Below are positions 6,680 through 45,612 of a stretch of 64,000 nt of DNA, piece by piece. The first letter of the stretch is position 1. The number at the start of each line of letters is the position of its first letter. The DNA is taken from assembly GCA_947500295.1 (NCBI GenBank), contig CANMRM010000001.1:1364001-1428000 (forward strand). Reading direction: 5' to 3'. Under the pieces are notes generated by a model. That model was not told the DNA's origin. It saw only the letters and a program-made list of their open reading frames with translations, and searched no databases. The position numbers and the translations under genes were made by a program. This DNA comes from an uncultured Kordiimonas sp. (GTDB lineage: Bacteria; Pseudomonadota; Alphaproteobacteria; Sphingomonadales; Kordiimonadaceae).

Positions 6680-6697
6680 TGATATAAACTTATAACA
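6680..6697. promoter_or_regulatory. Candidate shared operator, site 1 (weak)
   Basis: TGATATAAACTTATAACA lies between the divergent amine oxidase and VOC genes. By eye it matches 13 of 18 positions of the consensus TGTTATATCGATATAACA seen in other promoter gaps here. The right half-site TATAACA is intact and the left one is degenerate. Confidence 0.4.
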
Positions 6698-6782
6698 TTT
6701 ATTGTAAAATATTGATATACGTCATGTTGAAAAAAGCAGGATTTGGCCACCATCACTCAGAAAAATGGGATAGTCGGTTCCG

Positions 6783-7694
6783 ATGACAGAAAAACAGGGA
6801 TTTGACCGGGAAGGTCTGATCAAGGCGGCAACTGTAAGCGCAGCGGATGCAGCCGCGCTTGCCGGCACCTACCAGCAGTATTTCGGGCTGAATGTCGCCG
6901 AGCAGGGCACAGTGTCACCCGACCTTGCCGCAAGCTGGGGCGCTCCCGGCATGGCGGGGCAGCCCACCTATCTGATGACCTCAAGCAGCAAGACACCCAT
7001 TTTCGTCCGCATTGTCGAGAACCCCGGCATGCCAGCCTATACACCGCTTCGCACGTATGGTTGGAACGCGATGGAAATATGCGTGGAGGATGTTCATGCC
7101 CTGCACGCAAAACTGCAAGGGTCGCCGTTTAATATTATCGGCCCGCCGGTTGAGTTGGAGATTTCCAACATCTTTATTCCGATGCAGGCGATCGGGCCGG
7201 AAAATGAGGTACTGTTTCTGAATGAAGTGCACGGAAATATGCTCAATGAAGATCTGCCAAAAGCGGCTGCGCCGGTGGACCATATTTTTATCATGGTGCT
7301 GGCCACGCCCGATCGCGAAAAGGCCATCGAGTTTTATACCTCCAAGTTCGGTTGGCGAGAGGGCGACAGCTACAACCTCACTTATACCGTGATCAACAAT
7401 GCATTCGGGCTGGATGCAAACCATAAAACAGATATCACCACCACGGGGGTTGGTCGTCTGGTCAACAATGAAATTGACCAGTATCCCGCGGAAACCACAG
7501 AGCGCGACCAAGCAACCGGCATGCTGCCGCCAGGCATTGCCGCGGTTACCTACATGGTCAAGTCTCTCGATGGGCTCGACGTTGATTTCCTTACGGAGCC
7601 AGCGGAGCGCCCTGGTGCGATGTATCAGGGGCGTCGTTCCGCCTGTTGTCTTGGTGCCGCAGGCGAGCTCATTGAGCTGGTCGAGATCGATTGA
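6783..7694 (+). CDS. Two-domain VOC (glyoxalase/dioxygenase fold) protein
   Basis: This 303-residue cytoplasmic protein has two vicinal-oxygen-chelate domains, about residues 10-140 and 155-300. Visible features are GWNAMEICVEDVHALHAKL in the first half and VDHIFIMVLATPDREKAIEFYTSKFGW in the second, with ELIELVEID at the C-terminus supplying a family-type Glu. Family members are metal-dependent dioxygenases, isomerases or lyases, so the reaction cannot be given. It is the first gene of the operon running through the methyltransferase, TRAP transporter and FAD oxidase, which suggests it acts on the imported compound. Confidence 0.75.
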   Translation: MTEKQGFDREGLIKAATVSAADAAALAGTYQQYFGLNVAEQGTVSPDLAASWGAPGMAGQPTYLMTSSSKTPIFVRIVENPGMPAYTPLRTYGWNAMEICVEDVHALHAKLQGSPFNIIGPPVELEISNIFIPMQAIGPENEVLFLNEVHGNMLNEDLPKAAAPVDHIFIMVLATPDREKAIEFYTSKFGWREGDSYNLTYTVINNAFGLDANHKTDITTTGVGRLVNNEIDQYPAETTERDQATGMLPPGIAAVTYMVKSLDGLDVDFLTEPAERPGAMYQGRRSACCLGAAGELIELVEID

Positions 7695-7707
7695 GGCAGG
7701 TGGGGTC

Positions 7708-8595
7708 ATGAAAGGTGCGAGCAAAACGGCAGAAATGGTGGCGGCAGTACGTGCCGCTTATCACTATGGGCCGGAAGCAGCTCTGTTCGATGATCCCTTT
7801 GCGAGCCGTATGCTCGGGCCGGTGTTTCGCCTGAAATGTTCGGTTCCGTTCCTGCGCGAACATTATATGCGTCAGGGTATGTTCAAGCATCTGAAGTCTT
7901 CCCTGAGTGTTTTGTCGCGTGCCCGCTACTGCGAAGAACAGCTTGCCCAAGGAGTTACCGCCGGCATTCGTCAATATGTTCTTTTGGGTGCAGGGTTTGA
8001 TACGTTTGCACTGCGCGCTGATGAGCGGTTTTCTGCCCTCACTGTATTTGAGGTCGATACACCGGAAAGTCAGGCAGTAAAGCGTAAGCGTGTCGCTGCC
8101 TGCAGCCGGCAGTCGAATGTAGACCACCGGTTCGTGCCGGTGGACTTCACGCGCGACAAGGTTGAAGAACAGCTTCTTGCCAACGGTTTTGATCCTGAAA
8201 GCCCGGGCTTCTTCAGTTGGCAGGGTGTGCTGATCTATCTTGATAAAGAAACGATCCGGCGCTCCCTTGAGGGACTGGCCTCCATCACCGCCGCCGGGAG
8301 CCGGCTTATCGCGGACTTTATGGACGGTCGGCTTTTTGAAGCGGACTATCTGAAAACGATTCCGGAAACAGCCGCGGATGTGCAGCGCCTGATGGATTAT
8401 ACTGCCGCGAGGGGAGAACCTATCGTATCCGGGTTTGTACCGGCGGAGTTCGGAGAGCTGGCGCAATCAGTGGGCTGGAAACTGATTGACACGGTCACGT
8501 CCCGGGATCATGCGGCACCGCATCTTGAGGGCGAGCCTGATTATCGCTGGCCGACGGAATATGATCATTTGGTAACACTGGAACGTGTGCAGTAG
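7708..8595 (+). CDS. SAM-dependent methyltransferase, LCMT/TcmP-like family
   Basis: This 295-residue class I methyltransferase belongs to the leucine carboxyl methyltransferase-like family common in actinobacteria and proteobacteria. Visible features are the N-terminal ALFDDPFASRML, SAM motif I VLLGAGFDTFALR (about residue 90) and VFEVDTPESQAVKRKR. In that family, members methylate carboxylates or hydroxyls of small molecules. The start at 7708 has an AGGTGGGG ribosome site 13 bp after the VOC stop. Its place between the VOC and TRAP genes suggests a role in modifying the transported metabolite; the substrate is unknown. Confidence 0.8.
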   Translation: MKGASKTAEMVAAVRAAYHYGPEAALFDDPFASRMLGPVFRLKCSVPFLREHYMRQGMFKHLKSSLSVLSRARYCEEQLAQGVTAGIRQYVLLGAGFDTFALRADERFSALTVFEVDTPESQAVKRKRVAACSRQSNVDHRFVPVDFTRDKVEEQLLANGFDPESPGFFSWQGVLIYLDKETIRRSLEGLASITAAGSRLIADFMDGRLFEADYLKTIPETAADVQRLMDYTAARGEPIVSGFVPAEFGELAQSVGWKLIDTVTSRDHAAPHLEGEPDYRWPTEYDHLVTLERVQ

Positions 8596-8630
8596 GCTGA
8601 GCACAGCAGTTGGTTTTGAGGGGAGTTAAA

Positions 8631-15372: not shown

Positions 15373-15390
15373 TGCTATATCAGTATATCA
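15373..15390. promoter_or_regulatory. Candidate shared operator, site 2
   Basis: TGCTATATCAGTATATCA sits in the divergent gap between the MDR reductase and nitrilase-like genes and matches 14 of 18 positions of the local consensus TGTTATATCGATATAACA. It is 18 bp upstream of the MDR start, placed to block that promoter. Confidence 0.55.
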
Positions 15391-16536: not shown

Positions 16537-17625
16537 CTAGCCTCGACTACGCCAGCTATTCAATATTTCCTGCTCCCGCTCGCGGGAGAGGCCGAGCCCT
16601 CCAACAGGAAAGCTCGTGTGCCGGAAATTATAGGCGCTGTACCAGCGCCAGGCCGCACGTGCGGTTTCTTGAAGGGGCCTGTAGTGTGCACCTGCGGCAA
16701 GTGCTTTGGCGCCGCTGATCTGATAAAAGCCCTCATCTTCGTCAAGTGGTGCCCAAAGGGGCATGTCTGAAAAAGAGTTCACGCCTTGCTCGCGCCTCAG
16801 AAAATCCGCATCGACCCATGTCAATCGGACATCGCTGCCAAGGGCCTCGCGCGTGACTTCAAGAAAGTCCCTGAATTGCAGGGGTTTCTCGGGTCCGCAC
16901 ATGTTGAAAATGCCTGCCCGCTTGCTCTCCACACTATCCAGAATCCAACCTGCGAGGTCGCGCACATCAATGTATTGCACCGGGTCGTTGCCGTTGCCTG
17001 GGGCCAGAACCTCGTCTTCAAAAGCTAGTCTGCGCAGCCAATAGTGGAAAGCGGCACCGTCATCGCGCGGACCAAAGATGGCATGACAGCGCGAGACGCC
17101 ATGCGCATTCGGAAAGTACGTGGACAGAAGTTGCTCTGCCGCCACTTTTTCGCCCCCGTACCAGCCGGGATTATTGATATGAACGGGATCGCTTTCCTGC
17201 AGACCAGCCCGGCTAAAATTTCTGTAAACTGCGATACTTGAGCAGAAAAAGTAGAAGTCGGTCCGATCCGCCAATAGCCTTGCTGTTTCCGCAACCAACG
17301 CTGATTGCTCTGGCCAGACATCGATGACGGCATCCCAGCGACGCTTGCCGGCCAAAGCTGACAAATCGCTACCGTTCAGCCGTCTGTCGCCGCGAAGCTT
17401 TTCAACGTTCGGAAACAGGTAGGGCCGGGTGATGCCCCGATTAAACAGGGTAACCTCATGGCCTGCCGCGAGCGCACGTTCAACAACTGCAGGGCCGACA
17501 AAATTCGTACCGCCAAGGACCAATATCTTCATTGGCGTTTCGCTGGCCACCGCTTTTTGCGTCGCACCCACATAAGCGGCTGCCAGTCCACCAAGGGTCG
17601 TTTGCAGAAAACTTCTTCTGTGCAT
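16537..17625 (-). CDS. Exported NAD-dependent epimerase/dehydratase-like protein (Tat signal)
   Basis: This 362-residue short-chain reductase-type protein has a Tat-like leader HRRSFLQTTLGGLAAAYVG, then a Rossmann NAD motif ILVLGGTNFVGPAVVERAL (about 34-52). The active-site Tyr of extended SDRs appears in the NPGWYGGEKVAAEQLL segment (YxxxK: YGGEK). Related proteins act on nucleotide sugars or chloroplast RNA-binding substrates. Export of an NAD-binding SDR is uncommon, so the leader may be vestigial; a start at MKILVLGG (17532) would give a cytoplasmic form. The gene lies between two identical 36-bp repeats, as if inserted behind the nitrilase-like gene. Confidence 0.75.
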   Translation of the reverse strand: MHRRSFLQTTLGGLAAAYVGATQKAVASETPMKILVLGGTNFVGPAVVERALAAGHEVTLFNRGITRPYLFPNVEKLRGDRRLNGSDLSALAGKRRWDAVIDVWPEQSALVAETARLLADRTDFYFFCSSIAVYRNFSRAGLQESDPVHINNPGWYGGEKVAAEQLLSTYFPNAHGVSRCHAIFGPRDDGAAFHYWLRRLAFEDEVLAPGNGNDPVQYIDVRDLAGWILDSVESKRAGIFNMCGPEKPLQFRDFLEVTREALGSDVRLTWVDADFLRREQGVNSFSDMPLWAPLDEDEGFYQISGAKALAAGAHYRPLQETARAAWRWYSAYNFRHTSFPVGGLGLSREREQEILNSWRSRG

Positions 17626-17705
17626 GTAACTTTATAACATTAATTTGGCTCGGACACAAGATAGCCATCTATGGCAGCATTTGTCTCATGGGTGAGAAGC
17701 GGATA

Positions 17706-17746: not shown

Positions 17747-18469
17747 CTATTGCCCGTTCGGATAATATTCCGCAATATCCTCGAGCCGTTCGCGCTGTTT
17801 TATCACCACATTGTTGGGGTCAGGCAGCTCAATAAGGCCTTCGCGTTTGATTTTGGAAAACACGCGGCTGACAGTCTCGACTGTGATGCCAAGATAGTCC
17901 GCGATATCCACCCGTGTCATGGGCAGGTGCAGTGTTTCACGCGGGCCCAGCGCGGCTTTTTGCCGGTGTTCCATATGCAGCAGGAAATAAGCGAGTTTCT
18001 CGCGCGCGTTTTTGCAGCCCAGAACAAAAACCTGATCAAGCGTTGTTGCCAGTACTCTGCCGCCAATGCGTCTCAGGCGATGCTCCAGTTCAGGGTGGCG
18101 CTCCATCAAGGCGTCAAGGTCACGAATATGCCAGCGGCATGCGTTGAGCCGACTAAGCGCTTTGGCGCTTACGCTCGCAATTGCGTCCGGCAGGAGCCCG
18201 GCAAAATCCCCCGGGAACAGGAAGGCCATGATCTGGCGGCGTCCATCGCTTGACAGGCGCTCAAGAAGGCCGATGCCCGTGCTGATGTTGTAAACATAAT
18301 CACTGGGGTCTTCTTCTTCGAACAGATAGCCACCCGGCTTGATTTCGATGCGGGTGGCAATGGCATCAAGCTCATAGATTGCCTGTTCGTCGAGCGCAGA
18401 ACAAAGCCGGCTTTTGCGAGCCGGGCAGTTATGACACAGAATTTCACCAGTTTGCGACACAGGACGCAT
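17747..18469 (-). CDS. Crp/Fnr-family oxygen-responsive regulator (FnrL type)
   Basis: This 240-residue regulator has an N-terminal cysteine cluster CHNCPARKSRLC (C-x2-C-x7-C) plus a fourth Cys in LNACRWHIRD. This is the ligand set for an oxygen-labile [4Fe-4S] cluster in FnrL-like proteins of Alphaproteobacteria. A cyclic-nucleotide-like beta-roll follows, then a C-terminal helix-turn-helix with the recognition helix VETVSRVFSK, whose E-x2-SR pattern predicts binding to TTGAT-N4-ATCAA. Such sites occur at 24925, 43134 and 51091 in this window. I prefer the ATG at 18469, behind GGGAGAGAGG, over a GTG at 18487. Confidence 0.88.
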   Translation of the reverse strand: MRPVSQTGEILCHNCPARKSRLCSALDEQAIYELDAIATRIEIKPGGYLFEEEDPSDYVYNISTGIGLLERLSSDGRRQIMAFLFPGDFAGLLPDAIASVSAKALSRLNACRWHIRDLDALMERHPELEHRLRRIGGRVLATTLDQVFVLGCKNAREKLAYFLLHMEHRQKAALGPRETLHLPMTRVDIADYLGITVETVSRVFSKIKREGLIELPDPNNVVIKQRERLEDIAEYYPNGQ

Positions 18470-27158: not shown

Positions 27159-27168
27159 GAGACAAACA

Positions 27169-33665: not shown

Positions 33666-33668
33666 TAC

Positions 33669-34988: not shown

Positions 34989-35038
34989 GTGCATATCCCC
35001 CTGATTTCCGGATTTACCGGTGGCCACTGGTGCTGCAT

Positions 35039-35056
35039 TGTTATATATCTATAACA
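35039..35056. promoter_or_regulatory. Candidate shared operator, site 5
   Basis: TGTTATA-TATC-TATAACA has perfect seven-base arms and matches the local consensus at 15 of 18 positions. It lies 50 bp from the GPH carrier start and 30 bp from the methyltransferase start, so it could control both. Confidence 0.65.
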
Positions 35057-35086
35057 ACTAAGCAACCGGAATTGCGAGCAAGAACC

Positions 35087-36199
35087 ATGTCACGCGACCT
35101 TACCCACGACCTGATGCCCAGAACCGATCATGATGGCATGAGCAGGCGGCTTGCCGTACTTGCCATCAAGCGGGCAGTGGGGCGTGTGCTGCAGCCCGCA
35201 CTGATGAAGATGTATGAAGAAGATATCAGGCCGGTGGTCGAGAGCGATTTGGGCCGGCCTGTGGAAACGGCGGCTGATTTTCGCGAACCGCTCAAGCAAC
35301 GCGGCCTCTATAAGGTCTGGTCAAGCGTCAACAGGGCAAGCCAGCATCGCATGTGGACCATGCTGGCCGACCAGATAGACGCGGACTATGATCGTATTGC
35401 CGCTACTGCGGGGGTGAGTGAACAACGCGCGTCCCTGGATGGCGCTGATGGTTTTGAAGCGCCTGACTACATCCGGCAGGCCGACATTCACTGCCAGCCG
35501 GGCGGGTATCTTCTGGATCGCTTCGAGGGGGATCTGGGCGCTGGCCTTCTGTATGAAATGGGCGGCAATATCTACGCGCTTGGACAGAACATCGGTGCAA
35601 AAGACTCGAAGGCGCAGCGGATAATTGATTTCATCCGGGGCGAGTTTCCCGACCTGAAGCCCTCGAGTATTCTGGAGCTCGGGTGTTCCGCCGGGGCGCA
35701 AACAAGTTATTATCCTGCCGCCTTTCCGGACGCAGAAGTCCATGCAGCCGATATCTCGCACGCGATGCTGAGGTATGCAAAAGCCCGCGCTGACGCGTTG
35801 GGGGCGTCCGTTCACTTCCATTTGGCGGACGCTGCCAACATGCCATTTGACGATGGGGCATTTGACCTGATTGTGTCTCACAATATGCTGCATGAGACCG
35901 CCGCAAGCCATCAGGCTGCTGTTATGCAGGAGTGCGAGCGGCTTTTGGCTCCGGGCGGCCTGTGCCTGCATCAGGATGTGGCGGTACAGCTCGATAAACT
36001 TCCCCCCTTCATTCAGTTCCTGTCGGAATGGCAGAAGGAAAACAACGGCGAACCTTTCTGGCTTGATTATGCGACCGCCGACATTCCGGGCATATTGATT
36101 GATGCAGGATTTGATGCGGGTGCGGTAAAACCGCATTATCTCGACCAGCTGGATGGTCCGTTGCAATGGTATGTGGTGACTGCAAGCAAGTCCCGTTGA
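35087..36199 (+). CDS. Class I SAM-dependent methyltransferase
   Basis: This 370-residue protein has an extra N-terminal domain (about 1-200) of unknown role, then a methyltransferase core with motif I ILELGCSAGAQTSYYP (about 205-220), the acidic post-I residue in VHAADISHAML, and MPFDDGAFDLIVSHNMLHE with LLAPGGLCLHQDV. Relatives methylate small molecules or quinone-like rings. The start at 35087 gives MSRDLTHDLMPR; an upstream ATG at 35030 would overlap the operator. Being divergent from a carrier under one operator suggests that it modifies the transported compound. Confidence 0.82.
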   Translation: MSRDLTHDLMPRTDHDGMSRRLAVLAIKRAVGRVLQPALMKMYEEDIRPVVESDLGRPVETAADFREPLKQRGLYKVWSSVNRASQHRMWTMLADQIDADYDRIAATAGVSEQRASLDGADGFEAPDYIRQADIHCQPGGYLLDRFEGDLGAGLLYEMGGNIYALGQNIGAKDSKAQRIIDFIRGEFPDLKPSSILELGCSAGAQTSYYPAAFPDAEVHAADISHAMLRYAKARADALGASVHFHLADAANMPFDDGAFDLIVSHNMLHETAASHQAAVMQECERLLAPGGLCLHQDVAVQLDKLPPFIQFLSEWQKENNGEPFWLDYATADIPGILIDAGFDAGAVKPHYLDQLDGPLQWYVVTASKSR

Positions 36200-36203
36200 T
36201 CGA

Positions 36204-36500
36204 TCAGCTGTTTCGCATCAGGGCTGCAACGCGCTCCATCAGGGCATTCACATAGTTGCTGTGTGCAGCCAGGCGGTCGCTGGTTTCAGCCGCATCCGGC
36301 CGGTGCTGGTCTATCAGCCCGGATAAGCCTGCGTGCAGGGTCTCCGCCGTCTTCAGGCGGTCCCGCAATACACAGTTTTCTTCGGCGAGCTCCAGCAAGA
36401 GGGCAAGAAGCTCGTCTGTCGTTTTGTCGTCAAAATACCGGGGGCGGTTGGCGCTTGCCGCGTCGGCAATGCTTTTCAAGGTCGGCTTAGTGCCGCTCAT
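36204..36500 (-). CDS. Small coiled-coil protein of unknown function
   Basis: This 98-residue protein starts inside the stop codon of the CaiB gene (ATGA), so it is co-translated with it. The central part, LLALLLELAEENCVLRDRLKTAETL, has heptad-like leucines and is probably a coiled coil. It has no signal peptide or membrane helix. I do not recognise a family. A role as a small partner or stabiliser of the CoA-transferase is possible but rests on context alone. Confidence 0.65.
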   Translation of the reverse strand: MSGTKPTLKSIADAASANRPRYFDDKTTDELLALLLELAEENCVLRDRLKTAETLHAGLSGLIDQHRPDAAETSDRLAAHSNYVNALMERVAALMRNS

Positions 36501-37690
36501 TTGCCGCACCGTATCGTACCGTCGCTATCAAGGGCGTCGATGTCGGCTTCGCTGAATCCAAGGGTTGCAAGTACCTCGGCGGTATGTTCGCCGATTCTCG
36601 GCAGGTTCGTGCGAAGGCCGGGGCGTTCTCCGTCCATTTCAACAGGCATCGCTGGCAGCTTCGCTTTTGATCCGTCCTCAAGCGTGACTTCAATCATGCC
36701 GCCGTCAGCATTCAAATGTGGGTCGTCGATCAGTTCTTCCGGCTTGGCAATAGGGGCAAAAGGCAGGCCCGTCGTCTCCAGTTTTTCCATCAATTCAGCT
36801 TTACTGAACCGGCGGAAAAGGGCGCGCACGGTTGGCATCAGGCTATCCCGGCGCTTTACGCGCTCCGGATTGGTGGCATAGTCCGGATTGTTGGCCATTT
36901 CCGGCAATCCAAACGCCTCACAAAAAGCGACCCATTGGGTGTCGCTGACGACGCCAACAAAAATATTGTCCTCGTCGGCCGTTTCGAAAACATCATAAAT
37001 CGCCCAGCTGGAGATGCGGGCAGGCATTGGCTGTGCGGGTGTGCCGGTCACCGCATACTGAGCCATATGCTGCCCCACCAGATAGGCGGTCGTTTCATAA
37101 AGAGAACTTTTGACGTACTGACCCTTGCCCGTGCGGTGGCGTTCCTCGATCGCGGCAAGGATTGCAATGACTCCGAACATGCCACCCGTCACGTCGATCA
37201 CGCTGGCGCCAGCGCGCAGCGGACGGCCTGGAGGGCCGGTCATATAGGCAAGCCCACCCATCATTTGAGCAACTTCGTCAAGGGCGGTCCGCTCTTCGTA
37301 AGGGCCTTTCAAAAAGCCTTTTTCCGAACAATAGATCAGCCGATCGTTGATCTGGCTCAGGTCGTCATACCCAAAGCCAAGCTTGTCCATCGCGCCGGGG
37401 CGGAAGTTTTCAATAACAACGTCGGCATCCCTGATCAGCTTGCGGGCAATATCCTTGCCGGTATCAGACTTCATATCCAGGCAAATGCTGCGCTTGTTAC
37501 GGTTATACATGGCGAAATAACCGGCGCCCGCACCAACAAGGCGCCGCGTGTTGTCGCCTTTGGGCGGTTCTATCTTGATAACATCAGCGCCGAGATCGCC
37601 CAGCATAACGCCCACAGTGGGGCCCATCACCATGTGCGTAAACTCGATGACTTTGATGCCTGAAAGCGGCAGGTGCCGGATGTCCGTCAT
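36497..37690 (-). CDS. CaiB/BaiF-family CoA-transferase
   Basis: This 397-residue family III CoA-transferase has GIKVIEFTHMVMGPTVGVML, DLGADVIKIEPPKGD, AMYNRNKRSICLDMK and the catalytic Asp in ASVIDVTGG (about residue 168), followed by RTGKGQYVKSSLYE. It diverges from an HMG-CoA-lyase family gene across a copy of the shared palindrome. LeuCD-type genes and the lyase are nearby, which suggests the acid made by the dehydratase is activated here before C-C cleavage. The CoA donor and acceptor cannot be read from the sequence. Confidence 0.9.
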   Translation of the reverse strand: MTDIRHLPLSGIKVIEFTHMVMGPTVGVMLGDLGADVIKIEPPKGDNTRRLVGAGAGYFAMYNRNKRSICLDMKSDTGKDIARKLIRDADVVIENFRPGAMDKLGFGYDDLSQINDRLIYCSEKGFLKGPYEERTALDEVAQMMGGLAYMTGPPGRPLRAGASVIDVTGGMFGVIAILAAIEERHRTGKGQYVKSSLYETTAYLVGQHMAQYAVTGTPAQPMPARISSWAIYDVFETADEDNIFVGVVSDTQWVAFCEAFGLPEMANNPDYATNPERVKRRDSLMPTVRALFRRFSKAELMEKLETTGLPFAPIAKPEELIDDPHLNADGGMIEVTLEDGSKAKLPAMPVEMDGERPGLRTNLPRIGEHTAEVLATLGFSEADIDALDSDGTIRCGK

Positions 37691-37770
37691 GGTGCCCCTT
37701 TACTCCTTGACGATTGCAGCCACAACCCTGATCGGGTCATTATTTTGTCACTTGATCCTAAAACCTCAAT

Positions 37771-37788
37771 TGTTATATCAATAGAGCA
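37771..37788. promoter_or_regulatory. Candidate shared operator, site 6
   Basis: TGTTATATCAATAGAGCA matches the local consensus at 15 of 18 positions, with an intact left half-site. It is centred in the divergent gap between the CaiB gene (80 bp away) and the HMG-CoA-lyase family gene (86 bp away). Confidence 0.55.
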
Positions 37789-37874
37789 ATTAAAAAGACG
37801 GTTCAACCGGAAAATCCACCAGTTGCTCTCCGTTATTATAGTAATAGTGCTCGAAATCGGGCGGGAGTGACCTC

Positions 37875-38822
37875 GTGAATTCTGCAGACATAGACATCGA
37901 AATCAGTGAAGTTGGCCCCAGAGACGGCCTCCAGAGTATCGACCGGATCATGCCATTGGAGGCTAAAAAAGCCTGGGTCGCCGCGGAAGCTGCAGCTGGC
38001 GTGCCGGAGATCGAAGTGGGTTCCTTTGTGCCGGCAAAAATATTGCCGCAACTTGCGGATACGGCGGAGCTTGTTGCTTACGCAAAAACCCTTCCCGGTC
38101 TTACTGTTGCGGTGCTGGTACCGAACTTCCGGGGCGCGCAAAATGCCATTGAGGCAGGTGCGGACAAAATCACAATCCCCTTGTCGGTGAGCGAAACTCA
38201 CAGTCTCAAAAATGTGCGCCGCACCCATGAACAGATGCTTGAAGAGGTGTCACGGATCGTCGAACTGATAAACACGTTGCCTGAAAACAAACGCCCGGTT
38301 TTTGAAGGCGGCCTCTCTACAGCTTTTGGGTGCACTCTTGAAGGCGCCATTCCTGAAGGCACGGTGGTTCGGCTCGCTGAAGCGTTGATGGAGCGCGGGT
38401 GCAGTGAGGTTGGCCTGTCGGACACCACAGGTTATGCCAACCCGGGGCAGGTCAAGCGGCTTACAAAAGCGGTGAAAGCAGCGGTGGGTGATGACAAACT
38501 GACGGGTCTTCATTTGCACAATACCCGCGGCGTGGGGCTCGCCAATGTGATGGCGGCGCTTGAGGTTGGGATCACAACGCTGGATGCGTCGCTTGGTGGT
38601 ATTGGCGGTTGCCCGTTTGCCCCCGGCGCAAGTGGCAATATTGTCACGGAGGATCTTATTTACATGCTTGACAGCATGGGGCTGAAGACCGGGATCGATA
38701 TAGACAAGCTGCTTGGCGTTCGTTCAATCATCGAAGAAGCGTTGCCGGGCGAGCCGTTATACGGCTTCACGCCGGATGCCGGATTGCCCAAGGGATACCC
38801 GCGCGGCTATCAGCCGATCTAA
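37875..38822 (+). CDS. HMG-CoA lyase family enzyme (acyl-CoA retro-aldol)
   Basis: This 315-residue TIM-barrel lyase splits a 3-hydroxy-3-methyl-type acyl-CoA. Metal and active-site segments are intact: EVGPRDGLQ at the N-terminus, LSDTTGYANPGQ, LHLHNTRGVGLAN with the two His ligands, and GIGGCPFAPGASGN with the catalytic Cys. Translation begins at a GTG at 37875, seven bases after GGGAG. The substrate may be HMG-CoA or a citramalyl-CoA analogue. It lies between a CoA-transferase that could supply its thioester and LeuCD-type genes that could make the hydroxy acid. Confidence 0.9.
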   Translation: MNSADIDIEISEVGPRDGLQSIDRIMPLEAKKAWVAAEAAAGVPEIEVGSFVPAKILPQLADTAELVAYAKTLPGLTVAVLVPNFRGAQNAIEAGADKITIPLSVSETHSLKNVRRTHEQMLEEVSRIVELINTLPENKRPVFEGGLSTAFGCTLEGAIPEGTVVRLAEALMERGCSEVGLSDTTGYANPGQVKRLTKAVKAAVGDDKLTGLHLHNTRGVGLANVMAALEVGITTLDASLGGIGGCPFAPGASGNIVTEDLIYMLDSMGLKTGIDIDKLLGVRSIIEEALPGEPLYGFTPDAGLPKGYPRGYQPI

Positions 38823-38847
38823 AACTCTCTAATTCAGGAGCATGAAC

Positions 38848-39186
38848 ATGTCCGATGCTGACCCAAACCGCACCTTGTTTGTCATGGCCGTTTGCAAAGA
38901 CCGGCCAGGCCAGGAAGCGATAGATGCCCGAGAAGAATTTATGCAGGGTCACCTCGAGTATGTGGAATCGATCATGGACCACATTCTTGTTGCCGGGCCA
39001 ATTTTTGCGGATGACCAGAAAACGCTGATTGGCTCAAACCTCATCTACAAAACGGATGACAAGGAACAGGCGCGCCAATGGTTGGAATCTGACCCCTATT
39101 TCAAAGCGCCGATTTGGGAATCGGTGGAGTTTCATCTGTTTCGGGGTGCGCTGGGTGAGGCTGTTGGCGGTATCACCTACCGTTAG
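38848..39186 (+). CDS. YciI-like small protein
   Basis: This 112-residue protein has the YciI (ferredoxin-like) fold pattern: LFVMAVCKDRPG near the start, MQGHLEYVESIMDHILVAGP with conserved His and Asp, and the DPYFKAPIWESVEFHLF end. The group includes muconolactone-isomerase-like and dehalogenase-like proteins. The ATG at 38848 is seven bases from AGGAG; an ATG at 38842 is one base from it and less likely. It follows the lyase gene by 25 bp, and its stop overlaps that of the converging leuD-type gene. Confidence 0.78.
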   Translation: MSDADPNRTLFVMAVCKDRPGQEAIDAREEFMQGHLEYVESIMDHILVAGPIFADDQKTLIGSNLIYKTDDKEQARQWLESDPYFKAPIWESVEFHLFRGALGEAVGGITYR

Positions 39187-39815
39187 GGCTGGTTTTCGCT
39201 GAGCTTTGCCCAGGTGTTGCCGTCATAGTGGTTTTGTTCGAAGTCCTCTATTGAGGCCTTGAGTGTCAGTGTCCGGTCGATTGGATCCAGCCCGTCCAGC
39301 AGGGTCTGGCGATGGTTGGGCGAAATTTCGAACGTGTGTGTCCGGCCTGCAGGGTCGATGATGTGTTGCGCCAACAGATCAATTGTAAAAATGCCTGAAG
39401 AGCCTCCGACAGCCAGTTTTGCCAGCGCCGCGACTTCATCGGCAGGAAGCGTTACCGGCAACACACCGTTTTGAATGCAATTGCTGTGGAAGATGGCGCT
39501 GAAGGACGGCGCGATGACGGCGCGAATGCCATATTCCACAAGCGCCCAAACCGCATGCTCGCGGGATGACCCGCAGCCAAAATTCTCGCCGGCGATTATG
39601 ATCTGTGTGCCGAGATAAGCCGCGTGGTTGAGCACAAACTCCGGATTTGCGACCCGTTCGTCTATGTCTGTATAGCGCCAGCCTGCAAACAGGCCATTGG
39701 ACAGTCCTTTTTTCGAAACACGTTTCATCTCCCGCGACGGGATGATGATATCGGTATCGATGTTGACCCGCATCAAGGGGGCTGCAATCGCTGTTATGAC
39801 AGAAAATTTTTCCAC
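39183..39815 (-). CDS. leuD: LeuD-type dehydratase/isomerase small subunit
   Basis: This 210-residue protein is the swivelling subunit of an aconitase-family enzyme, with MRVNIDTDIIIPSR, NFGCGSSREHAVWALVEYG and the substrate-contact loop typical of isopropylmalate isomerase. I choose the GTG at 39815, one base after the leuC-type stop; longer readings overlap leuC. The pair sits in a catabolic neighbourhood with no other leucine genes, so it may isomerise or dehydrate a substituted malate other than isopropylmalate, such as dimethylmalate or citramalate. Confidence 0.85.
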   Translation of the reverse strand: MEKFSVITAIAAPLMRVNIDTDIIIPSREMKRVSKKGLSNGLFAGWRYTDIDERVANPEFVLNHAAYLGTQIIIAGENFGCGSSREHAVWALVEYGIRAVIAPSFSAIFHSNCIQNGVLPVTLPADEVAALAKLAVGGSSGIFTIDLLAQHIIDPAGRTHTFEISPNHRQTLLDGLDPIDRTLTLKASIEDFEQNHYDGNTWAKLSENQP

Positions 39816-39816
39816 G

Positions 39817-41259
39817 TTAGCCAACGCCCCCGGCGACCTTGCGGTCAAGCATGCCATCCTCAAGATCGTGAAAACTCGAAATACAGCCCTTGATCGCTGA
39901 CGCTGCGACAGTGGCGGGGCTTGCCAGATGTGTGCGGGTTTTAGGCCCCTGCCGGTTTTCGAAGTTTCGATTGGTGGTGGAAATCACGCGTTCCCGCGTG
40001 CCAAAGCTCTCTCCGCCTGCATAGAAACACATGGAGCAGCCCGGCAGTCTCCACTCAAAACCGGCATCCTTGAAGACCTGGTCAAGGCCTTCAGCCTCCG
40101 CCTCGGCTTTCACTTTCATGGAACCCGGAACGCAAATCGCCTTGACGCCTTTTGCTACGTGCCGCCCCTTGAGGACAGCGGCTGCACGGCGCAGGTCGGA
40201 TAGCCGGCCGTTGGTGCACGAGCCGATAAAGGCGCCGTCGATGGGAACCCCGGCGATCGGTATACCGCTTTCCAGTCCAATGTAATCGAGTGCTTTGCTG
40301 ATGCTCTCATGATTGACCGAGCAACCGGTGTTATCCGCTGTTGGCACCAGTCCACCAATTTCTACGGCGTGCTCGGGGCTTGTGCCCCAGGTTACGGTCT
40401 CGGAAAGATGGCTGACATCGATGATAACGTCCCGGTCAAAAATGGCATTGCCGTCGCTGCGCAGGCTGGACCATAGCGATTTAGCTTCATCCCATGCGTC
40501 GCCTTTCGGCGCATAGGGTTTCCCCTCCAGAAAGCTGATTGCTGTTTCATCCGGTGCAATGACGGCAGTGAAAGCGGACAGCTCCACGCCCATATTGCAA
40601 AGCGTCATGCGGGCTTCCATGTCCATCGCTTCAATGACGGGACCGCAGAATTCAATGGCATGCCCGCTGCCGCCCGCTGCACCAAGTTCACCAATAATGT
40701 GCAAAATCACATCTTTGGCTGTCAGGCCGTCTGGAAGAACACCATTGACCGTGATCCGCATTTGTTTGGGTTTCGTGACCCGCAGGGTTGAGGTGGCAAG
40801 GGCATGCTCTGCTTCTGTCGAGCCAATGCCCCATGCCAGTGCGCCGAACGCTCCCTGCGAACAGGTGTGGCTGTCAGGACAAACAAGGCTCAGGCCCGGT
40901 AGGACAATGCCTTGTTCCGGTGAGATGACGTGTACGATACCCTGATCGGCATCATTGACGTCAAAGAGTTTAATCCCGGCCCAGCGGCACCCTTCGCGCA
41001 TCGCCTTGATGAAGTCTTCGCCGCTTGGCATCAGGGTGCTGTCGCCGCGGCCGTCCAGCGTATCGACGATGTGGTCCATCGTGCCAAAAACGTGGGCAGG
41101 AAAGCGAACAGTCCGGCCGCTTTCCTGTAAACTTTTGAGCGCAACGCTACCGGTGCGCTCATGGATGAACACCCTGTCGACATAGAGAAGCGCGTTGTTG
41201 TCACCGAGGTCGGTGACAACATGCGCATCCCATAATTTATCGAACAGAGTTTTTGCCAT
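39817..41259 (-). CDS. leuC: LeuC-type dehydratase/isomerase large subunit
   Basis: This 480-residue protein binds the [4Fe-4S] cluster of an aconitase-family enzyme. The cluster cysteines are visible in VCPDSHTCSQGAFG, FIGSCTNGR and PGCSMCFYAGGE. Length is normal for LeuC. It forms a two-gene operon with the small subunit directly downstream. The CaiB and HMG-CoA-lyase neighbours favour a catabolic hydroxy-acid isomerase over leucine synthesis, but a plain biosynthetic leuCD cannot be excluded without phylogeny. Confidence 0.88.
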   Translation of the reverse strand: MAKTLFDKLWDAHVVTDLGDNNALLYVDRVFIHERTGSVALKSLQESGRTVRFPAHVFGTMDHIVDTLDGRGDSTLMPSGEDFIKAMREGCRWAGIKLFDVNDADQGIVHVISPEQGIVLPGLSLVCPDSHTCSQGAFGALAWGIGSTEAEHALATSTLRVTKPKQMRITVNGVLPDGLTAKDVILHIIGELGAAGGSGHAIEFCGPVIEAMDMEARMTLCNMGVELSAFTAVIAPDETAISFLEGKPYAPKGDAWDEAKSLWSSLRSDGNAIFDRDVIIDVSHLSETVTWGTSPEHAVEIGGLVPTADNTGCSVNHESISKALDYIGLESGIPIAGVPIDGAFIGSCTNGRLSDLRRAAAVLKGRHVAKGVKAICVPGSMKVKAEAEAEGLDQVFKDAGFEWRLPGCSMCFYAGGESFGTRERVISTTNRNFENRQGPKTRTHLASPATVAASAIKGCISSFHDLEDGMLDRKVAGGVG

Positions 41260-41279
41260 AGCTCTTCTTGTATCAGGAC

Positions 41280-42197
41280 CTAGTTGTGGCCGCCACGTGG
41301 AAGCTTGCCACCTTCAATCATCTTCTTGAAGTATGTCCAGCTCGTCTCGTTTGGCCGATCATCATCACCCGGAGGTGGTGTTGTGTAAGTCGGCTCTTTC
41401 TCAGCGACATACCGTTTCATCACGTCTGGCAGGTCATCCCACGAGTCGACCTTCTGGCCTGCGGCATGGATGTAGATGATGCCTTCGCGGCCCTGCATTT
41501 CCATCCACGGCAGCCAGTCCGAAATACGAACCCAGCCGACTTTCACGTCCGCTGTGTCGGTGGCGTCGCTTGTCAGGCTTTCCAGGTCTCCCATGAAGTT
41601 AAACAGTTCTGTTGCATGGTAAGCTCCGCCCACATAGGGCTGATATTCACCGCCAAGCTCATTGTGGTAAAAAAGCGGAATTGGCGCTGTCAGGAACCAG
41701 TTGTCACCCTGGTTGCGGGCAAACCAGCGGGCACGCGGGTTGCCTTCGTCGTCATAGGGAAAGCTCGGGCGCTGGTTCACAGGGTCGTTTGCCACATGCA
41801 GAACATTGACCGTGGTGTCGGTCCACGGGTTGTCCCATGTCTCAAGCGCTTCACCGGTTTTGGGGTCCAGATACAGCAGGATTTCTTTCGAAACCAGCCG
41901 GTACCCCGTGCCTTTTTCGCCGCCGTCAACGGATACACAGGTGCGAATATTCATGCCGACTGTGCCAAACATGCGTTTGTCCGCTTCGCCCATGCGACGG
42001 GAAAAGACGGAGCCTTCCCATGTGTAAAGCACTGGCTTGTTGTCTTCGGTCGAACACTGGATTTTCCGGTTGGCAGCGACAGCGCCTTCCGGTGTGTTCA
42101 GGTCAATTGGTGCAGCTGTTGCCGCTGTGCCTGCAAGCAAGGCACCGGTCACTGCGCTCGCCAGGACAAACCGTCCTGATTTCAGCATCCCCATCAT
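41280..42197 (-). CDS. Exported DUF1838 family protein
   Basis: This 305-residue protein has a signal peptide (GRFVLASAVTGALLAGTAATAA) and the DUF1838 body, with RKIQCSTEDNKPVLYTWEGSVFSR, KEILLYLDPKTGEALETW and WLPWMEMQGREGIIYIHAAG. The family has no established reaction; its members often lie next to catabolic genes and are periplasmic. GAGGAGAC precedes the start. A near-consensus copy of the shared palindrome is 34 bp upstream, and a terminator of the neighbouring membrane gene separates the two. Confidence 0.82.
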   Translation of the reverse strand: MMGMLKSGRFVLASAVTGALLAGTAATAAPIDLNTPEGAVAANRKIQCSTEDNKPVLYTWEGSVFSRRMGEADKRMFGTVGMNIRTCVSVDGGEKGTGYRLVSKEILLYLDPKTGEALETWDNPWTDTTVNVLHVANDPVNQRPSFPYDDEGNPRARWFARNQGDNWFLTAPIPLFYHNELGGEYQPYVGGAYHATELFNFMGDLESLTSDATDTADVKVGWVRISDWLPWMEMQGREGIIYIHAAGQKVDSWDDLPDVMKRYVAEKEPTYTTPPPGDDDRPNETSWTYFKKMIEGGKLPRGGHN

Positions 42198-42231
42198 AAA
42201 TAGTCTCCTCTCTGCTGGATTCTGGTTTAAA

Positions 42232-42249
42232 TAGTATATTGATATAACA
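42232..42249. promoter_or_regulatory. Candidate shared operator, site 7
   Basis: TAGTATATTGATATAACA matches the local consensus at 15 of 18 positions with an intact right half (GATATAACA). It is 34 bp ahead of the DUF1838 start, where it would cover the core promoter. Confidence 0.6.
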
Positions 42250-42304
42250 ATAGGATCAATTGATTCCGTGAAATCCTATCGAAATGACTTGGAAAGCTAC
42301 AAAA

Positions 42305-42328
42305 AAGGCAGACGCGCAGGCCTGCCTT
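42305..42328 (-). terminator. Intrinsic terminator after the six-span membrane gene
   Basis: AAGGCAG pairs with CTGCCTT across a ten-base loop, and the plus-strand A-run at its left (42301-42306) becomes a T-run on the minus strand. It lies 22 bp past the end of the membrane-protein gene, as expected for its terminator. Confidence 0.6.
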
Positions 42329-42349
42329 GATTGCGTATTGATTGCTGGA

Positions 42350-43069
42350 TCAGAAGGCCTTGGTGACGCCAACAAAGGCCATGGTGCCGATGCTGACCCA
42401 ATAGATGTAGGCAGCGATCCGTGCCTGCTGCAGCGTGTTATAGATATGGTCTTCCAGTGTATCGTCCGGGCCATCTGATTCCAGTTTCCGGAAGGCGCCA
42501 ACCCAGTCGGTCATTACATACCGCAGGTACAGGCCAATGATCAGGATGAAGCCAAAGAAGGCCATTTTGAAGGCAAACCAGTATTGACCGGCTTCGTCGC
42601 CTGTCACCAGAACCTTGCCGGTAAACATGGTGTAAAGGCCCGCGAACATCAGTGCCGGGATGACAACCCAGCGGATCTTGTTGTCGATTTCGGTCAGGCG
42701 CACATATTTTTCCGTGCCAGCGTTTTTGAACGCACCCCAGATGAGGAACCACCACCAGGCGGCTGTTGCGACCCACACAACCGTGACCCACATGCCCGAT
42801 ACGGGCGACAGCCCGTAGTTGTCAGCCATATGAAAACCAACCGGCAGCAGCCAGATGATGGCGGAGCGCGGCAGGATATCGATCATCACCGCTGTTTTCA
42901 TGTGACGCCGGCGCTCTTCCAGCGTGAGTGTGCGATCTGCGACAAATGTCGATGCGTTGAAAACGCCCCACTCGCCGCCCAGCCAGTAAGCCGCCAGAAT
43001 GATATGGATCCAGCGCAGCACGTCATGCAGCGGGATTTCCATGCCTAGAAAGTTCAGATATGTGTCCAT
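42350..43069 (-). CDS. Six-helix membrane protein, CopD/urate-hydroxylase-N-like
   Basis: This 239-residue protein has six hydrophobic segments, beginning with VLRWIHIILAAYWLGGEWG, whose R-W-x-H pattern in helix 1 recalls the membrane part of PuuD urate hydroxylases (DUF989) and CopD-like proteins. Helix-borne His in this family can bind haem or copper. HMKTAVMIDILPR and GFHMADNYG hold further His. No cytochrome c domain follows, unlike full PuuD. The ATG at 43069 is eight bases after AGGGGA. Function is unknown; a link to the DUF1838 protein next door is contextual only. Confidence 0.7.
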   Translation of the reverse strand: MDTYLNFLGMEIPLHDVLRWIHIILAAYWLGGEWGVFNASTFVADRTLTLEERRRHMKTAVMIDILPRSAIIWLLPVGFHMADNYGLSPVSGMWVTVVWVATAAWWWFLIWGAFKNAGTEKYVRLTEIDNKIRWVVIPALMFAGLYTMFTGKVLVTGDEAGQYWFAFKMAFFGFILIIGLYLRYVMTDWVGAFRKLESDGPDDTLEDHIYNTLQQARIAAYIYWVSIGTMAFVGVTKAF

Positions 43070-43133
43070 CACATGTCCCCTGTAGGTAACCCTTTAGTTA
43101 GCCCCAATCTCTGGCTGAGAGCGGTTTTTTGCA

Positions 43134-43147
43134 TTGATGCACGTCAA
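43134..43147. promoter_or_regulatory. Fnr-like box, one mismatch
   Basis: TTGAT-GCAC-GTCAA differs from the canonical TTGAT-N4-ATCAA at one position. It lies between the divergent membrane-protein and MFS genes, 16 bp from operator site 8. Confidence 0.5.
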
Positions 43148-43162
43148 TGGGCTGGTAAAAGT

Positions 43163-43180
43163 TGTGATATCGATATAACA
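43163..43180. promoter_or_regulatory. Candidate shared operator, site 8 (best match)
   Basis: TGTGATATCGATATAACA differs at one base from the perfect palindrome TGTTATATCGATATAACA, and the flanking TT and AA extend the dyad to 20 bp or more. It is 50 bp ahead of the MFS gene and 93 bp ahead of the divergent membrane gene. Confidence 0.7.
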
Positions 43181-43230
43181 ATTAAAGAATCGTAGCGTAA
43201 AGCTGTTGGCCATAGCGGGGAGATGGGCAC

Positions 43231-44595
43231 ATGAGCGACACCAGCAATTCGGACTCAAATACGCCTGAAAACACCGGGCAATCCGGGGCATATCCCAATT
43301 CAGGCTATGCCTGGTATGTGGTTGTTCTGCTGACGATTGCCTACATCTTCTCCTACATTGACAGGATTGTGCTGGGTCTCGTGCTTGAGCCAATGAAGGC
43401 CGACCTGGGCCTCTCGGACACCAACATGGGTCTGCTTGGCGGCGCTGCGTTTGCTATTTTTTACGCTACCATGGGTATTCCGCTCGGTTGGCTTGTGGAC
43501 CGAAAGCCGCGCAAGCTTATTGTCGCCATGGGCGCCATTTTATGGTCGGCCGCCACAATGGCAACAGGTGTTGCCCGTGGTTTTTATCAGCTGTTTGCTG
43601 CCCGTATGGCGGTTGGCTTTGGCGAGGCGGCGCTCAGCCCGAGTGCCATGTCGCTGATTTCTGACCTGTTTGCGCCGGAGCGACGGGCCAAGGCTATTGC
43701 TTTCTATTCGATGGCGCTTGGTGTTGGATCAGCGATCGCATATCTGGTGGTGGGCGCAATCCTCACCTATGCTGAAAATGCTGACCTGTCCTACCTGTCA
43801 TTTCTCGGGGTCGACAAGCCCTGGCAAGTTGTGTTTCTGGCTGTGGGTTTCCCCGGCATCCTGCTTGGGCTGATCTTTCTGACTGTTCGTGAGCCGGAGC
43901 GCAAGCAAACCAAACTCTCGGCAACGGACGGCCAGGGCGCGGCGACGTTCCGCCAGACACTTGGTTACATCTGGGGTCACAAACTGCCTCTTATCGGGCT
44001 CACGGTGATGGTGTCTGGCATGACGGCTATCGCCTATACCAGCATGTGGTTGCCACCTTTGTTTGAACGCACCTGGGGGTGGAGTGCAGCGACATTCAGC
44101 AACTATAACGGTTCCGTTCTGCTGTTTCTTGCGCCGGCGTCGATTTTGTTCTGGGGATGGCTGATTGACCACTTTAACCAGAAGGGGCGGCATGACATGC
44201 CATTTGTGGTCACCCGGGCAGGCCTCGCCGTGCTGGTGGTCTCCAGTGTCATCTTTCCGCTGATGCCGGACGTTTGGGCAGCGTTTGTGATATCACAGGT
44301 CGCCAACGTCGGTTTCACGATGGTGACAGCTGGCGGAATCACCGCGATGCTGGCCATCCTGCCCAGTGAACTCAGAGGGCAGGCTGTGGCGCTATACTAT
44401 ATGTTTATCAGCATGACAGGGCTGTTGATCGGCCCGTCGGTGGTGCCCTTGTTCACAGACTACGTCTTCAGGGACGAAAGCCTGATCCGCTACTCGATGT
44501 CTTTGGTGCCATTGTTGTATGGCGGCACAATTCTGCTGTTTTCCGGCATTGTCGGGCGAGCCTATCGCGAGGAACTCGCCCGATTTAATGACTAG
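43231..44595 (+). CDS. MFS transporter (Spinster-like / aromatic-acid type)
   Basis: This 454-residue carrier has 12 predicted helices. The N-terminal helix 1 YVVVLLTIAYIFSYIDRIVLG with its Asp, the loop-2 motif GWLVDRKPRKLIV and the SLISDLFAPERRAKAIAFYS segment are typical of the Spinster-like branch common in sphingomonads and related bacteria. A GGGGAGATGGG ribosome site precedes the start. It lies under operator site 8 and beside the VOC array, which suggests import of the compound handled there. Confidence 0.88.
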   Translation: MSDTSNSDSNTPENTGQSGAYPNSGYAWYVVVLLTIAYIFSYIDRIVLGLVLEPMKADLGLSDTNMGLLGGAAFAIFYATMGIPLGWLVDRKPRKLIVAMGAILWSAATMATGVARGFYQLFAARMAVGFGEAALSPSAMSLISDLFAPERRAKAIAFYSMALGVGSAIAYLVVGAILTYAENADLSYLSFLGVDKPWQVVFLAVGFPGILLGLIFLTVREPERKQTKLSATDGQGAATFRQTLGYIWGHKLPLIGLTVMVSGMTAIAYTSMWLPPLFERTWGWSAATFSNYNGSVLLFLAPASILFWGWLIDHFNQKGRHDMPFVVTRAGLAVLVVSSVIFPLMPDVWAAFVISQVANVGFTMVTAGGITAMLAILPSELRGQAVALYYMFISMTGLLIGPSVVPLFTDYVFRDESLIRYSMSLVPLLYGGTILLFSGIVGRAYREELARFND

Positions 44596-44598
44596 GGG

Positions 44599-45063
44599 CT
44601 ACCCTTCAAGGCGTTGGTTCAACTCAAAAAAATGACCGTCGGGGTCGAACACACCGACGGATCGCACTTTCACAACACCGCCGTCGGCGCCGGGGTATTC
44701 AGATTCTGACAAGGGTGCGCGGATGACGCACTCGAGGGCTTTTGCCTTTTCAAAGGCGACCGCGGCATCTTCAACCGCTGCGACAAAAACCGGATTGCCG
44801 AAATCGAAGTCATACGGGATTTCCGGTGCGTCCGGTTTGGGGTCCAGCCACTCCAGAAGCCCGATCATGCCGATAACCGGATCTTCACCCTTCATGATCA
44901 CAAGGCGTGTCACGTCCCCTTTGTTGCCGCCTGGCAGCAGGTCGCCCGACAAAGTGATTTCGTTGTCATAGTATTTCGACATGCCCATGACGCCTTCATA
45001 GAAGGCAACGGATTTTTCCATATCACGGACCTTCAGGGTCGTGCGTTTGACAATTGCGGTCAT
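44599..45063 (-). CDS. Single-domain-pair VOC family protein
   Basis: This 154-residue protein has the glyoxalase-type fold: VKRTTLKVRDMEKSVAFYEGVMG at the N-terminus and VRSVGVFDPDGHFFELNQRL at the C-terminus. It is a paralogue of the adjacent 45083-45556 protein (same VKRTT.RVRDM.K..AFYEGV.GM pattern). The start at 45063 follows GGGGAAC; an ATG at 45126 is unlikely. A metal-dependent dioxygenase, lyase or binding role is possible. Confidence 0.8.
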   Translation of the reverse strand: MTAIVKRTTLKVRDMEKSVAFYEGVMGMSKYYDNEITLSGDLLPGGNKGDVTRLVIMKGEDPVIGMIGLLEWLDPKPDAPEIPYDFDFGNPVFVAAVEDAAVAFEKAKALECVIRAPLSESEYPGADGGVVKVRSVGVFDPDGHFFELNQRLEG

Positions 45064-45082
45064 AGTGGGTTCCCCAATAAAG

Positions 45083-45556
45083 TTAAAGACGTTGATTGCA
45101 TTCAAAAAAATGGCCGTCCGGGTCAAAAAGACCCACGGAGCGGACTTTTACGGTGCCGCCAGCTGCGGCGGGATATTCGGTTTCTGTCAGGGCGGAGCGG
45201 ATCTCGCAGCCCATGGCTTTGGCTTTTTCATAGAGTGCATTGGCATCCGGGCATTGCACAACAAATACGGGCTGACCAAACTCAAAATCATAGGTAACAG
45301 GCGGTGGTGATTGCGGAGGTTCAAGCCATTTCAGCAAGCCGATCATGCCGATCACCGGGTCTTTACCCTGCATAATCACCAAATGAATTTTATCCCCCGG
45401 TTTTTCGCCCGGCAGGAAATGTCGATCCAGCACCACGTCGTTATTGTAATATTGCTTCATGCCCAGCACGCCTTCGTAAAACGCGATGGCCTTGTCCATG
45501 TCACGCACACGGATCGTGGTGCGTTTCACTAAGGGGTCGTCAAGCGGTGTTTCCAT
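45083..45556 (-). CDS. VOC family protein, paralogue of its downstream neighbour
   Basis: This 157-residue glyoxalase-fold protein (VKRTTIRVRDMDKAIAFYEG, VRSVGLFDPDGHFFECNQRL) forms a two-gene unit with the 44599 gene, 19 bp apart. The C-terminal Glu of the metal site is kept in HFFECNQ. No clear ribosome site precedes the ATG, which lies 31 bp from the large palindromic operator shared with the divergent VOC operon. The two may form a heterodimer. Confidence 0.8.
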   Translation of the reverse strand: METPLDDPLVKRTTIRVRDMDKAIAFYEGVLGMKQYYNNDVVLDRHFLPGEKPGDKIHLVIMQGKDPVIGMIGLLKWLEPPQSPPPVTYDFEFGQPVFVVQCPDANALYEKAKAMGCEIRSALTETEYPAAAGGTVKVRSVGLFDPDGHFFECNQRL

Positions 45557-45586
45557 GGCGGTGAAGCTTTACTCAGGCAATTCAAA

Positions 45587-45612
45587 TGTTATATAAGTAT
45601 ATCTATATAACA
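45587..45612. promoter_or_regulatory. Candidate shared operator, site 9 (extended dyad)
   Basis: The arms TGTTATATA and TATATAACA are perfect reverse complements, nine bases each, separated by eight bases. This looks like two overlapping copies of the shared palindrome. It lies between two divergent VOC operons, 30 bp from one start and 12 bp from the other. Confidence 0.65.

Follow-up and report, generated by a model that had tools for sequence, protein, structure and literature searches.

A putative GntR/UTRA operator set and local catabolic regulon in an uncultured Kordiimonas sp.

A 64,000-nucleotide stretch of the genome of an uncultured Kordiimonas sp. (assembly GCA_947500295.1, contig CANMRM010000001.1, positions 1,364,001 to 1,428,000), hereafter the window, contains nine copies of an 18-base palindromic site, one of them upstream of a gene, gntR (25031-25843), for a regulator with GntR and UTRA domains. 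Comparison of sequences suggests, with a probability of about 0.88, that this protein reads the sites as operators and controls its own gene together with a local catabolic regulon, from which a ligand would release it. The protein would bind the palindromes as a HutC-type dimer or dimers and control gntR and eight further promoter regions, which serve transporters, a TonB receptor, and CaiB, lyase, hydratase and VOC genes; on binding a pathway intermediate through its UTRA domain it would leave the operator. An inducer-released repressor, not an activator, is the most likely mode of action. The sites, their conservation at promoters and their link to a protein family and its recognition helix come from the comparisons below; from these we infer binding, repression, ligand release and the pathway. 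Open-access literature searches listed no match in which an account of this regulator or its sites was recognised. The local regulon is well supported; as far as such searches go, it is new both as a group and in its operator, and ordinary in kind.

Sites in the window and in the genome

The sequence-only reading of this DNA had placed nine similar sequences at 6680, 15373, 24888, 31566, 35039, 37771, 42232, 43163 and 45587. All nine are present, each matching at 13-17 of 18 positions, although the register of the fourth shifts from 31566 to 31574 (26.6 against 17.2 with a weight matrix built from 15 sites of other genera, hereafter the foreign matrix). They were said to lie between genes, which holds after two start-codon corrections: the open reading frames (ORFs) seemingly covering 35039 and 45587 begin too early in the mechanical list, and in-frame ATG codons at 35087 and 45625 leave both sites intergenic. 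Seven sites occupy divergent gaps, as had been described; the other two, at 31574 and 42232, each stand before a single gene start. The perfect nine-base arms reported for the last site are there, with an 8-base spacer, but 45587-45612 consists of two overlapping sites (45587 and 45595). The sites, to which no strand is assigned, and the candidate regulator gene are as follows, with foreign-matrix scores.

S1, 6680-6697: divergent gap between an amine oxidase gene (minus) and a run of VOC-like, methyltransferase and TRAP transporter genes (plus); score 29.8
S2, 15373-15390: divergent gap between an ADH-type oxidoreductase gene (minus) and a carbon-nitrogen hydrolase gene (plus); score 26.5
S3, 24888-24905: divergent gap between a DUF1330 gene with an aldehyde dehydrogenase run (minus) and gntR (plus); score 13.6; proposed autoregulatory site of gntR
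gntR, 25031-25843, plus strand: GntR/UTRA (HutC-type) regulator of 270 amino acids (aa), candidate reader of the sites
S4, 31574-31591: upstream of the TonB receptor gene (minus); score 26.6
S5, 35039-35056: divergent gap between an MFS_2 carrier gene (minus) and a methyltransferase gene (plus, likely ATG 35087); score 23.5
S6, 37771-37788: divergent gap between a CaiB gene (minus) and an HMG-CoA-lyase-like gene (plus); score 22.4
S7, 42232-42249: upstream of a DUF1838, LeuC-like, LeuD-like run (minus); score 27.7
S8, 43163-43180: divergent gap between the gene for a 240-aa protein (minus), in which no Pfam family is found at E 0.001, and an MFS_1 carrier gene (plus); score 27.1
S9, 45587-45612: two overlapping sites 8 bp apart in the divergent gap between two VOC genes; scores 27.4 and 21.7

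With up to three mismatches to the 18-mer, four matches were found in the window versus none in 100 dinucleotide shuffles, and the whole 4.27 Mb genome holds five, four of them in the window. A degenerate form, TGNTATAWNNWTATANCA, composed after the sites had been seen, occurs with at most one mismatch at nine places in the genome, seven of which fall in the window (1.5% of the genome), and the reversed control gives none; the probability of such a share under random placement is near 6e-12. All six places matching a second form, TGWTATATNNNTATAWCA, at zero or one mismatch are in the window, and at two mismatches it matches many places elsewhere too (20 forward and 16 reverse matches in total; reversed control 5 and 6).

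With the foreign matrix, window sites take ranks 1-9, and 24888 comes at rank 13, behind overlapping registers and a match at 17622; the 15 foreign sites had themselves been chosen with the window matrix, which makes this a consistency check and not a fully independent test. Fourteen window matches exceed a score of 12, twelve of them sites or overlapping registers, against a mean of 0.18 and a maximum of 3 in 300 runs of a second-order Markov null of intergenic DNA. Inside the site the nine window copies agree at 73%, and in their flanks at 29%, against 28% for random pieces of the window.

The two matches outside the set of nine are 17622-17639 (score 15.7), which adjoins an epimerase-like gene, and 54088-54105 (score 12.1), which adjoins a LysR gene. 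Beyond the window, at a distance of 19 kb on its left, a weaker site (contig position 1345129, score 16.2) precedes another TonB-receptor-like gene. A match at contig position 927124 is inside mechanical ORFs downstream of a second LeuCD-like gene pair and was taken as chance. The same genome has a strong palindrome, TGATATAACGTTATATCG, at C2:511558-511575 (L015:5058; score 17.6), which may belong to another regulator; a 752-aa ORF begins about 18 bp downstream of it. A promoter scan of 31400-45700 was uninformative, with 5 matches versus 9.2 in shuffles.

Conservation of the sites and their link to the GntR protein

Six of the nine promoters were compared with those of genome G014, whose gntR product is 81% identical; S1 and S2 lie outside the stretches covered, and no counterparts of the genes on either side of S5 were found in G014. 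Of the bases in the sites, 105 of 116 agree (91%), against 409 of 877 (47%) for the remaining sequence of these six gaps; site by site the values are 15/18 for S3, 17/18 for S4, 15/18 for S6, 16/18 for S7, 16/18 for S8 and 26/26 for S9. Genome G013 has nine sites in the same order, paired with those of the window by order and sequence only, each with a score of at least 22.7, and a tenth similar sequence (25.1) is found left of its cluster. In other families of the order the genes are reshuffled, yet sites still stand in gaps beside relatives of window genes: between the aldehyde dehydrogenase gene and gntR (G041, G019, L020), between CaiB and HMG-lyase genes (G041), at a TonB receptor-like gene (G019), and between ADH-type and carbon-nitrogen hydrolase genes (G042). 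The last of these, the counterpart of S2, lies between two orthologs and scores 27.4 with the window matrix.

Pattern matches were counted in 59 related genomes: nine have an ortholog of at least 63% identity and a median of 6 matches (52 in all; reversed control 6), and the other 50, with G025 and G040 counted among them, have a median of 1. The matches cluster, all six of those in G019 falling within 54 kb that include gntR, all seven in G003 within 61 kb, and four of five in G041 within 26 kb. Genome G040 has 6 pattern matches and no ortholog at E 1e-20; on three of its contigs that were examined, orthologs of window genes have sites upstream of them, and the edge of a contig carries a piece of gntR with 54% identity over 37 residues.

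The gntR product has a GntR domain (Pfam PF00392, 3.1e-18, residues 25-88) followed by a UTRA domain (PF07702, 3.9e-33, residues 115-249). It shares these two domains and a conserved helix arginine with the HutC subfamily (NagR/YvoA, DasR, HutC), and NagR/YvoA and DasR are among its relatives of solved structure, the closest named ones; the helix differs from that of NagR in having Lys where NagR has Arg. Twenty-four NCBIfam models were matched, none above its cut-off (HutC 113 versus 220 bits), and by the NCBIfam equivalog cut-offs the protein fits no known HutC orthologous group (HutC, PhnF, PhnR, trehalose repressor).

Homologs of gntR were found in 20 of the 59 relatives (E <=1e-20) and, at E <=1e-35, in 43 of 385 members of the class and 29 of 296 members of the order, of which the 54 loci scanned for sites cover a part. 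In 33 of the 54, the 600 bases upstream of the gntR match include a site with a score of at least 15, compared with 0.7% of 2,700 shuffled upstream regions. Such a site accompanies 30 of the 41 homologs with the recognition helix SRITxKR, which carries Lys, versus 3 of the 13 with another residue, and it reaches relatives in Alphaproteobacteria down to 34-41% protein identity. The gntR product of G025, though 34% identical overall, shares this helix, and strong sites, several in number, lie beside its gene. The paralogs G031a and G031b, with other helices (37% and 36% identical), have no site above 8, and homologs of about 28-33% identity (L032-L040, L042) none above 11. Fifty-five homolog loci had been listed; L106 was unparsed and not counted, and a separate scan of it gave the helix ARVTARR without a site (best score 2.3). 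Outside the 54-locus table stand L022-L024 (93-94% identical; scores 22.7, 20.3 and 19.8) and L124, a partial gene with a score of 18.7 somewhere in the locus.

Several observations weigh against the GntR protein as the reader. Eleven of the 41 homologs with the SRITxKR helix have no strong upstream site, including the 63% ortholog of G042, which nevertheless has the site at another orthologous promoter mentioned above. Among proteins with the helix SRITARR three have a site and four do not, so that Lys is not strictly needed. Pattern matches occur without an ortholog in G036 (5), G007 and G046 (4 each), but there the reversed control gives 3, 3 and 5. The window matrix, with which the homologs were scanned, includes the gntR site itself, and by the foreign matrix that site is the lowest of the set. 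Finally, related genomes are not independent, so the Fisher value (p = 0.002) and the Mann-Whitney value for the comparison of the 59 genomes (p = 9e-5) overstate the association.

The sequence-only reading had named the UTRA-type GntR protein as the best candidate reader of a local regulon. This proposal is supported by the site upstream of gntR, its link to the helix and its conservation: that the site follows gntR and its helix is the pattern expected of a self-controlling regulator which reads it.

Operator geometry and alternative readers

In HutC-type sites GT and AC are mostly 4 nucleotides apart (PMC4494728), and the core of the window sites had been said to agree with GntR-family operators. 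As a whole the 18-mer does not fit GT-N4-AC (GTMTAKAC), its outer GT and AC being 12 apart and not 4; the agreement holds only if each half is read as a unit of its own, since inner units of the form TGnTATAnCA keep G and C at the usual distance. Perfect units of this form are found at four window sites (15373, 24888, 37771, 42240), and a fifth (24624) falls within the DUF1330 gene, which was then unmasked in the count. The latter gene is the first to the left of S3.

DUF1330 gene, 24504-24800, minus strand: Pfam DUF1330 7.3e-26; under the length limit of the ORF list and absent from it; ends read from the sequence

The sequence at 24616/24624 (TTGATATAACAA) resembles a perfect single unit and was rejected as a site for its position inside this gene, where the variants in G003 and G018 alter, as we read them, only the third base of a Ser codon; it was left out of the site set and the matrix.

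In the NagR complex Arg48 reads G-4 and Arg38 reads G-5 (PMC4333415). Counted along the alignment, R62 of the window protein corresponds to Arg48 and H52 to Arg38. The unit TGnTATAnCA keeps G at -4, and the T that it has at -5 accords with the absence of Arg38. Together with the following counts of the central dinucleotide, this gives moderate support for reading the 18-mer as two HutC units interleaved at an offset of 8 bp. Such a unit is completed by CA or TG at the centre, present in 37 of 81 sites against a background of 13.6%, and in 18/45, 7/19 and 4/11 as similar sites are removed stepwise. Fourteen sites came from pattern loci (L055-L083) for which no link to an ortholog-bearing genome was established, two of these loci (L082, L083) being dropped without a genome look-up; without the 14 the counts are 36/67 and then 17/34, 5/13 and 4/8. 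Among the 81 sites a central CA seemed to trade off against the far half-site; this was discarded, since it disappears once similar sites are removed (7/18 versus 14/27, p = 0.54).

The strongest competitor, to which we give somewhat under even odds, is a single wide operator, on which one GntR dimer would occupy each 18-mer with its two DNA-binding domains 8 bp further apart than in NagR. The DNA-binding domains of NagR do take a wide range of orientations, as described in PMC4333415, and at least half of the sites in every deduplicated count are without a central CA or TG; the wide dyad has its own symmetry, outer TG and CA both being kept in 14 of the 27 deduplicated sites of this kind. The excess of the central dinucleotide over background, which persists after the untied loci are dropped, speaks against a single wide operator, as do the known GntR complexes, in which half-sites are 5 to 8 nucleotides apart (PMC4333415).

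Other members of the subfamily offer partial parallels. Additional half-sites 7-12 nucleotides from the site centre are published for HutC-subfamily regulators, their function being left open in that account (PMC4494728). The operator of SdhR, another member, is likewise longer than the usual unit and has inner symmetry (PMC4494728); its sequence differs, and the two are set side by side by operator only. A fuller proposal joins operator and pathway: compound operators read by two dimers (three units at 45587) would govern an undescribed regulon of Alphaproteobacteria that degrades cyclic imides or substituted maleates; LeuCD- or DmdAB-like enzymes would carry out the hydration, and cleavage would fall to CaiB and HMG-lyase here, or to a methylisocitrate/dimethylmalate-lyase-like enzyme in genome G153. 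As a whole, this proposal is speculative and rather unlikely to hold in every part.

A different reader within the cluster has much less in its favour. An FNR-like regulator is encoded at 17747-18487; it has N-terminal cysteines and falls below the FnrL and FixK cut-offs. Were it to read the sites, gntR would be merely one of its targets, which we consider very improbable. Its gene does sit in the cluster, and relatives of 51-72% identity are found near gntR in G014, G041, G042 and G048, an association that counts against GntR as the reader; in G025, moreover, the relative is 72% conserved versus 34% for GntR, though it is 59 kb from the G025 gntR. However, in nine distant alphaproteobacteria with a site upstream of gntR (G153, G059, G240, G422, G434, G315, G350, G433, G389) the best relative reaches no more than 35-44% identity and is encoded on a different contig or 0.89 Mb or more away from gntR; the gntR neighbourhoods examined showed none. 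The distribution of the site thus does not follow the FNR-like gene in these nine genomes, while the two co-occur in several Kordiimonadales. The relatives in G019 are 40-41% identical, and yet one of them (C1:638104) adjoins the outermost site of the cluster. The site tracks gntR and its helix, and the FNR box, TTGAT-N4-ATCAA, has another spacing than these sites.

That the sites are copies of a mobile or AT-rich repeat element and not operators can be practically discounted: the copies are AT-rich and mutually similar, but their flanks are no more alike than random pieces, conservation drops within about 4 bases of the 18-mer (45 sites), and sites stand at corresponding promoters in other genera despite a different gene order.

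Genes of the cluster and a possible pathway

The GntR protein, as the preferred reader, would control carriers, a TonB receptor, VOC proteins, CaiB and a lyase, in line with the genes named by the sequence-only reading, at whose promoters the sites were found. The principal enzymes and the receptor are the following.

29027-31525, minus strand: TonB-dependent receptor (Pfam 1.9e-31)
36497-37690, minus strand: CaiB-type CoA transferase (Pfam 5.5e-117)
37875-38822, plus strand: HMG-CoA-lyase-like lyase (above the cut-off of NCBIfam PRK05692)
39183-41259, minus strand: LeuD-like and LeuC-like hydratase subunits (both above the NCBIfam cut-offs for 3-isopropylmalate dehydratase)

Another LeuCD-like pair, 48% and 44% identical to that of the window, lies at about 923.5-925.5 kb of the contig, and one pair or the other probably serves a purpose other than leucine synthesis. 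A catabolic role is proposed for the window pair because of its position in the cluster and the presence of the other pair elsewhere.

Judging from the families represented, the gene core suggests that cyclic imides or substituted maleates are broken down; a route leading from cyclic imides or lactams via acids of the maleamate type to substituted malates would account for it. Eight of the nine distant genomes (not G059) have, near gntR, HyuA/HyuB-like genes, LeuCD-like hydratase genes or both, 29-48% identical to the window proteins, and some of these loci also have isochorismatase-type hydrolases and a PuuE-like protein. The run in G153 includes a methylisocitrate/dimethylmalate lyase family member that scores under the prpB cut-off; the window covers the same functions, its CaiB and HMG-lyase-like genes being a likely alternative to that lyase. 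According to PMC9304392, Aspergillus HxnM resembles a protein that has cyclic imidases and PuuE among its relatives. With cyclic-imide breakdown by a PuuE-like imidase and an amidase, as represented by Aspergillus HxnM/HxnN and bacterial imidases, the window shares PuuE-like proteins and isochorismatase-type hydrolases, two of each; its PuuE-like proteins score far below the PuuE cut-off. A possible natural source of such compounds is tetrapyrrole fragments such as methylated maleimides. Two findings weigh against the proposed route, namely that the imidase-like and HyuAB genes of the window are outside the set with strong sites, and that NCBIfam places the LeuCD-like pair with 3-isopropylmalate dehydratase.

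Several neighbouring groups of genes were observed. Next to gntR, at 26100-28847, three consecutive genes (352, 389 and 169 aa) match no Pfam family at E 0.001. Five VOC/glyoxalase-type genes on both strands are clustered around one site at 44599-48453. At 48464-51015 there are two adjacent PuuE/imidase-like proteins and an isochorismatase-type hydrolase; these genes have no strong site in the window, although their orthologs in G040 and G041 do. The stretch 54618-62196, whose genes are also adjacent in G014, encodes HyuA/HyuB (caprolactamase-like, below cut-off), an HMG-lyase, a CaiB protein and a GntR/FCD regulator, and is perhaps a neighbouring regulon.

The proposed regulon would link an unassigned group of GntR/UTRA regulators, present in 43 of the 385 alphaproteobacterial genomes sampled (E 1e-35) and not in all cases accompanied by the site, to a defined operator and to targets. 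It is directly testable and could be used to find the pathway, and it would provide a clean case for how HutC-type dimers use additional half-sites.

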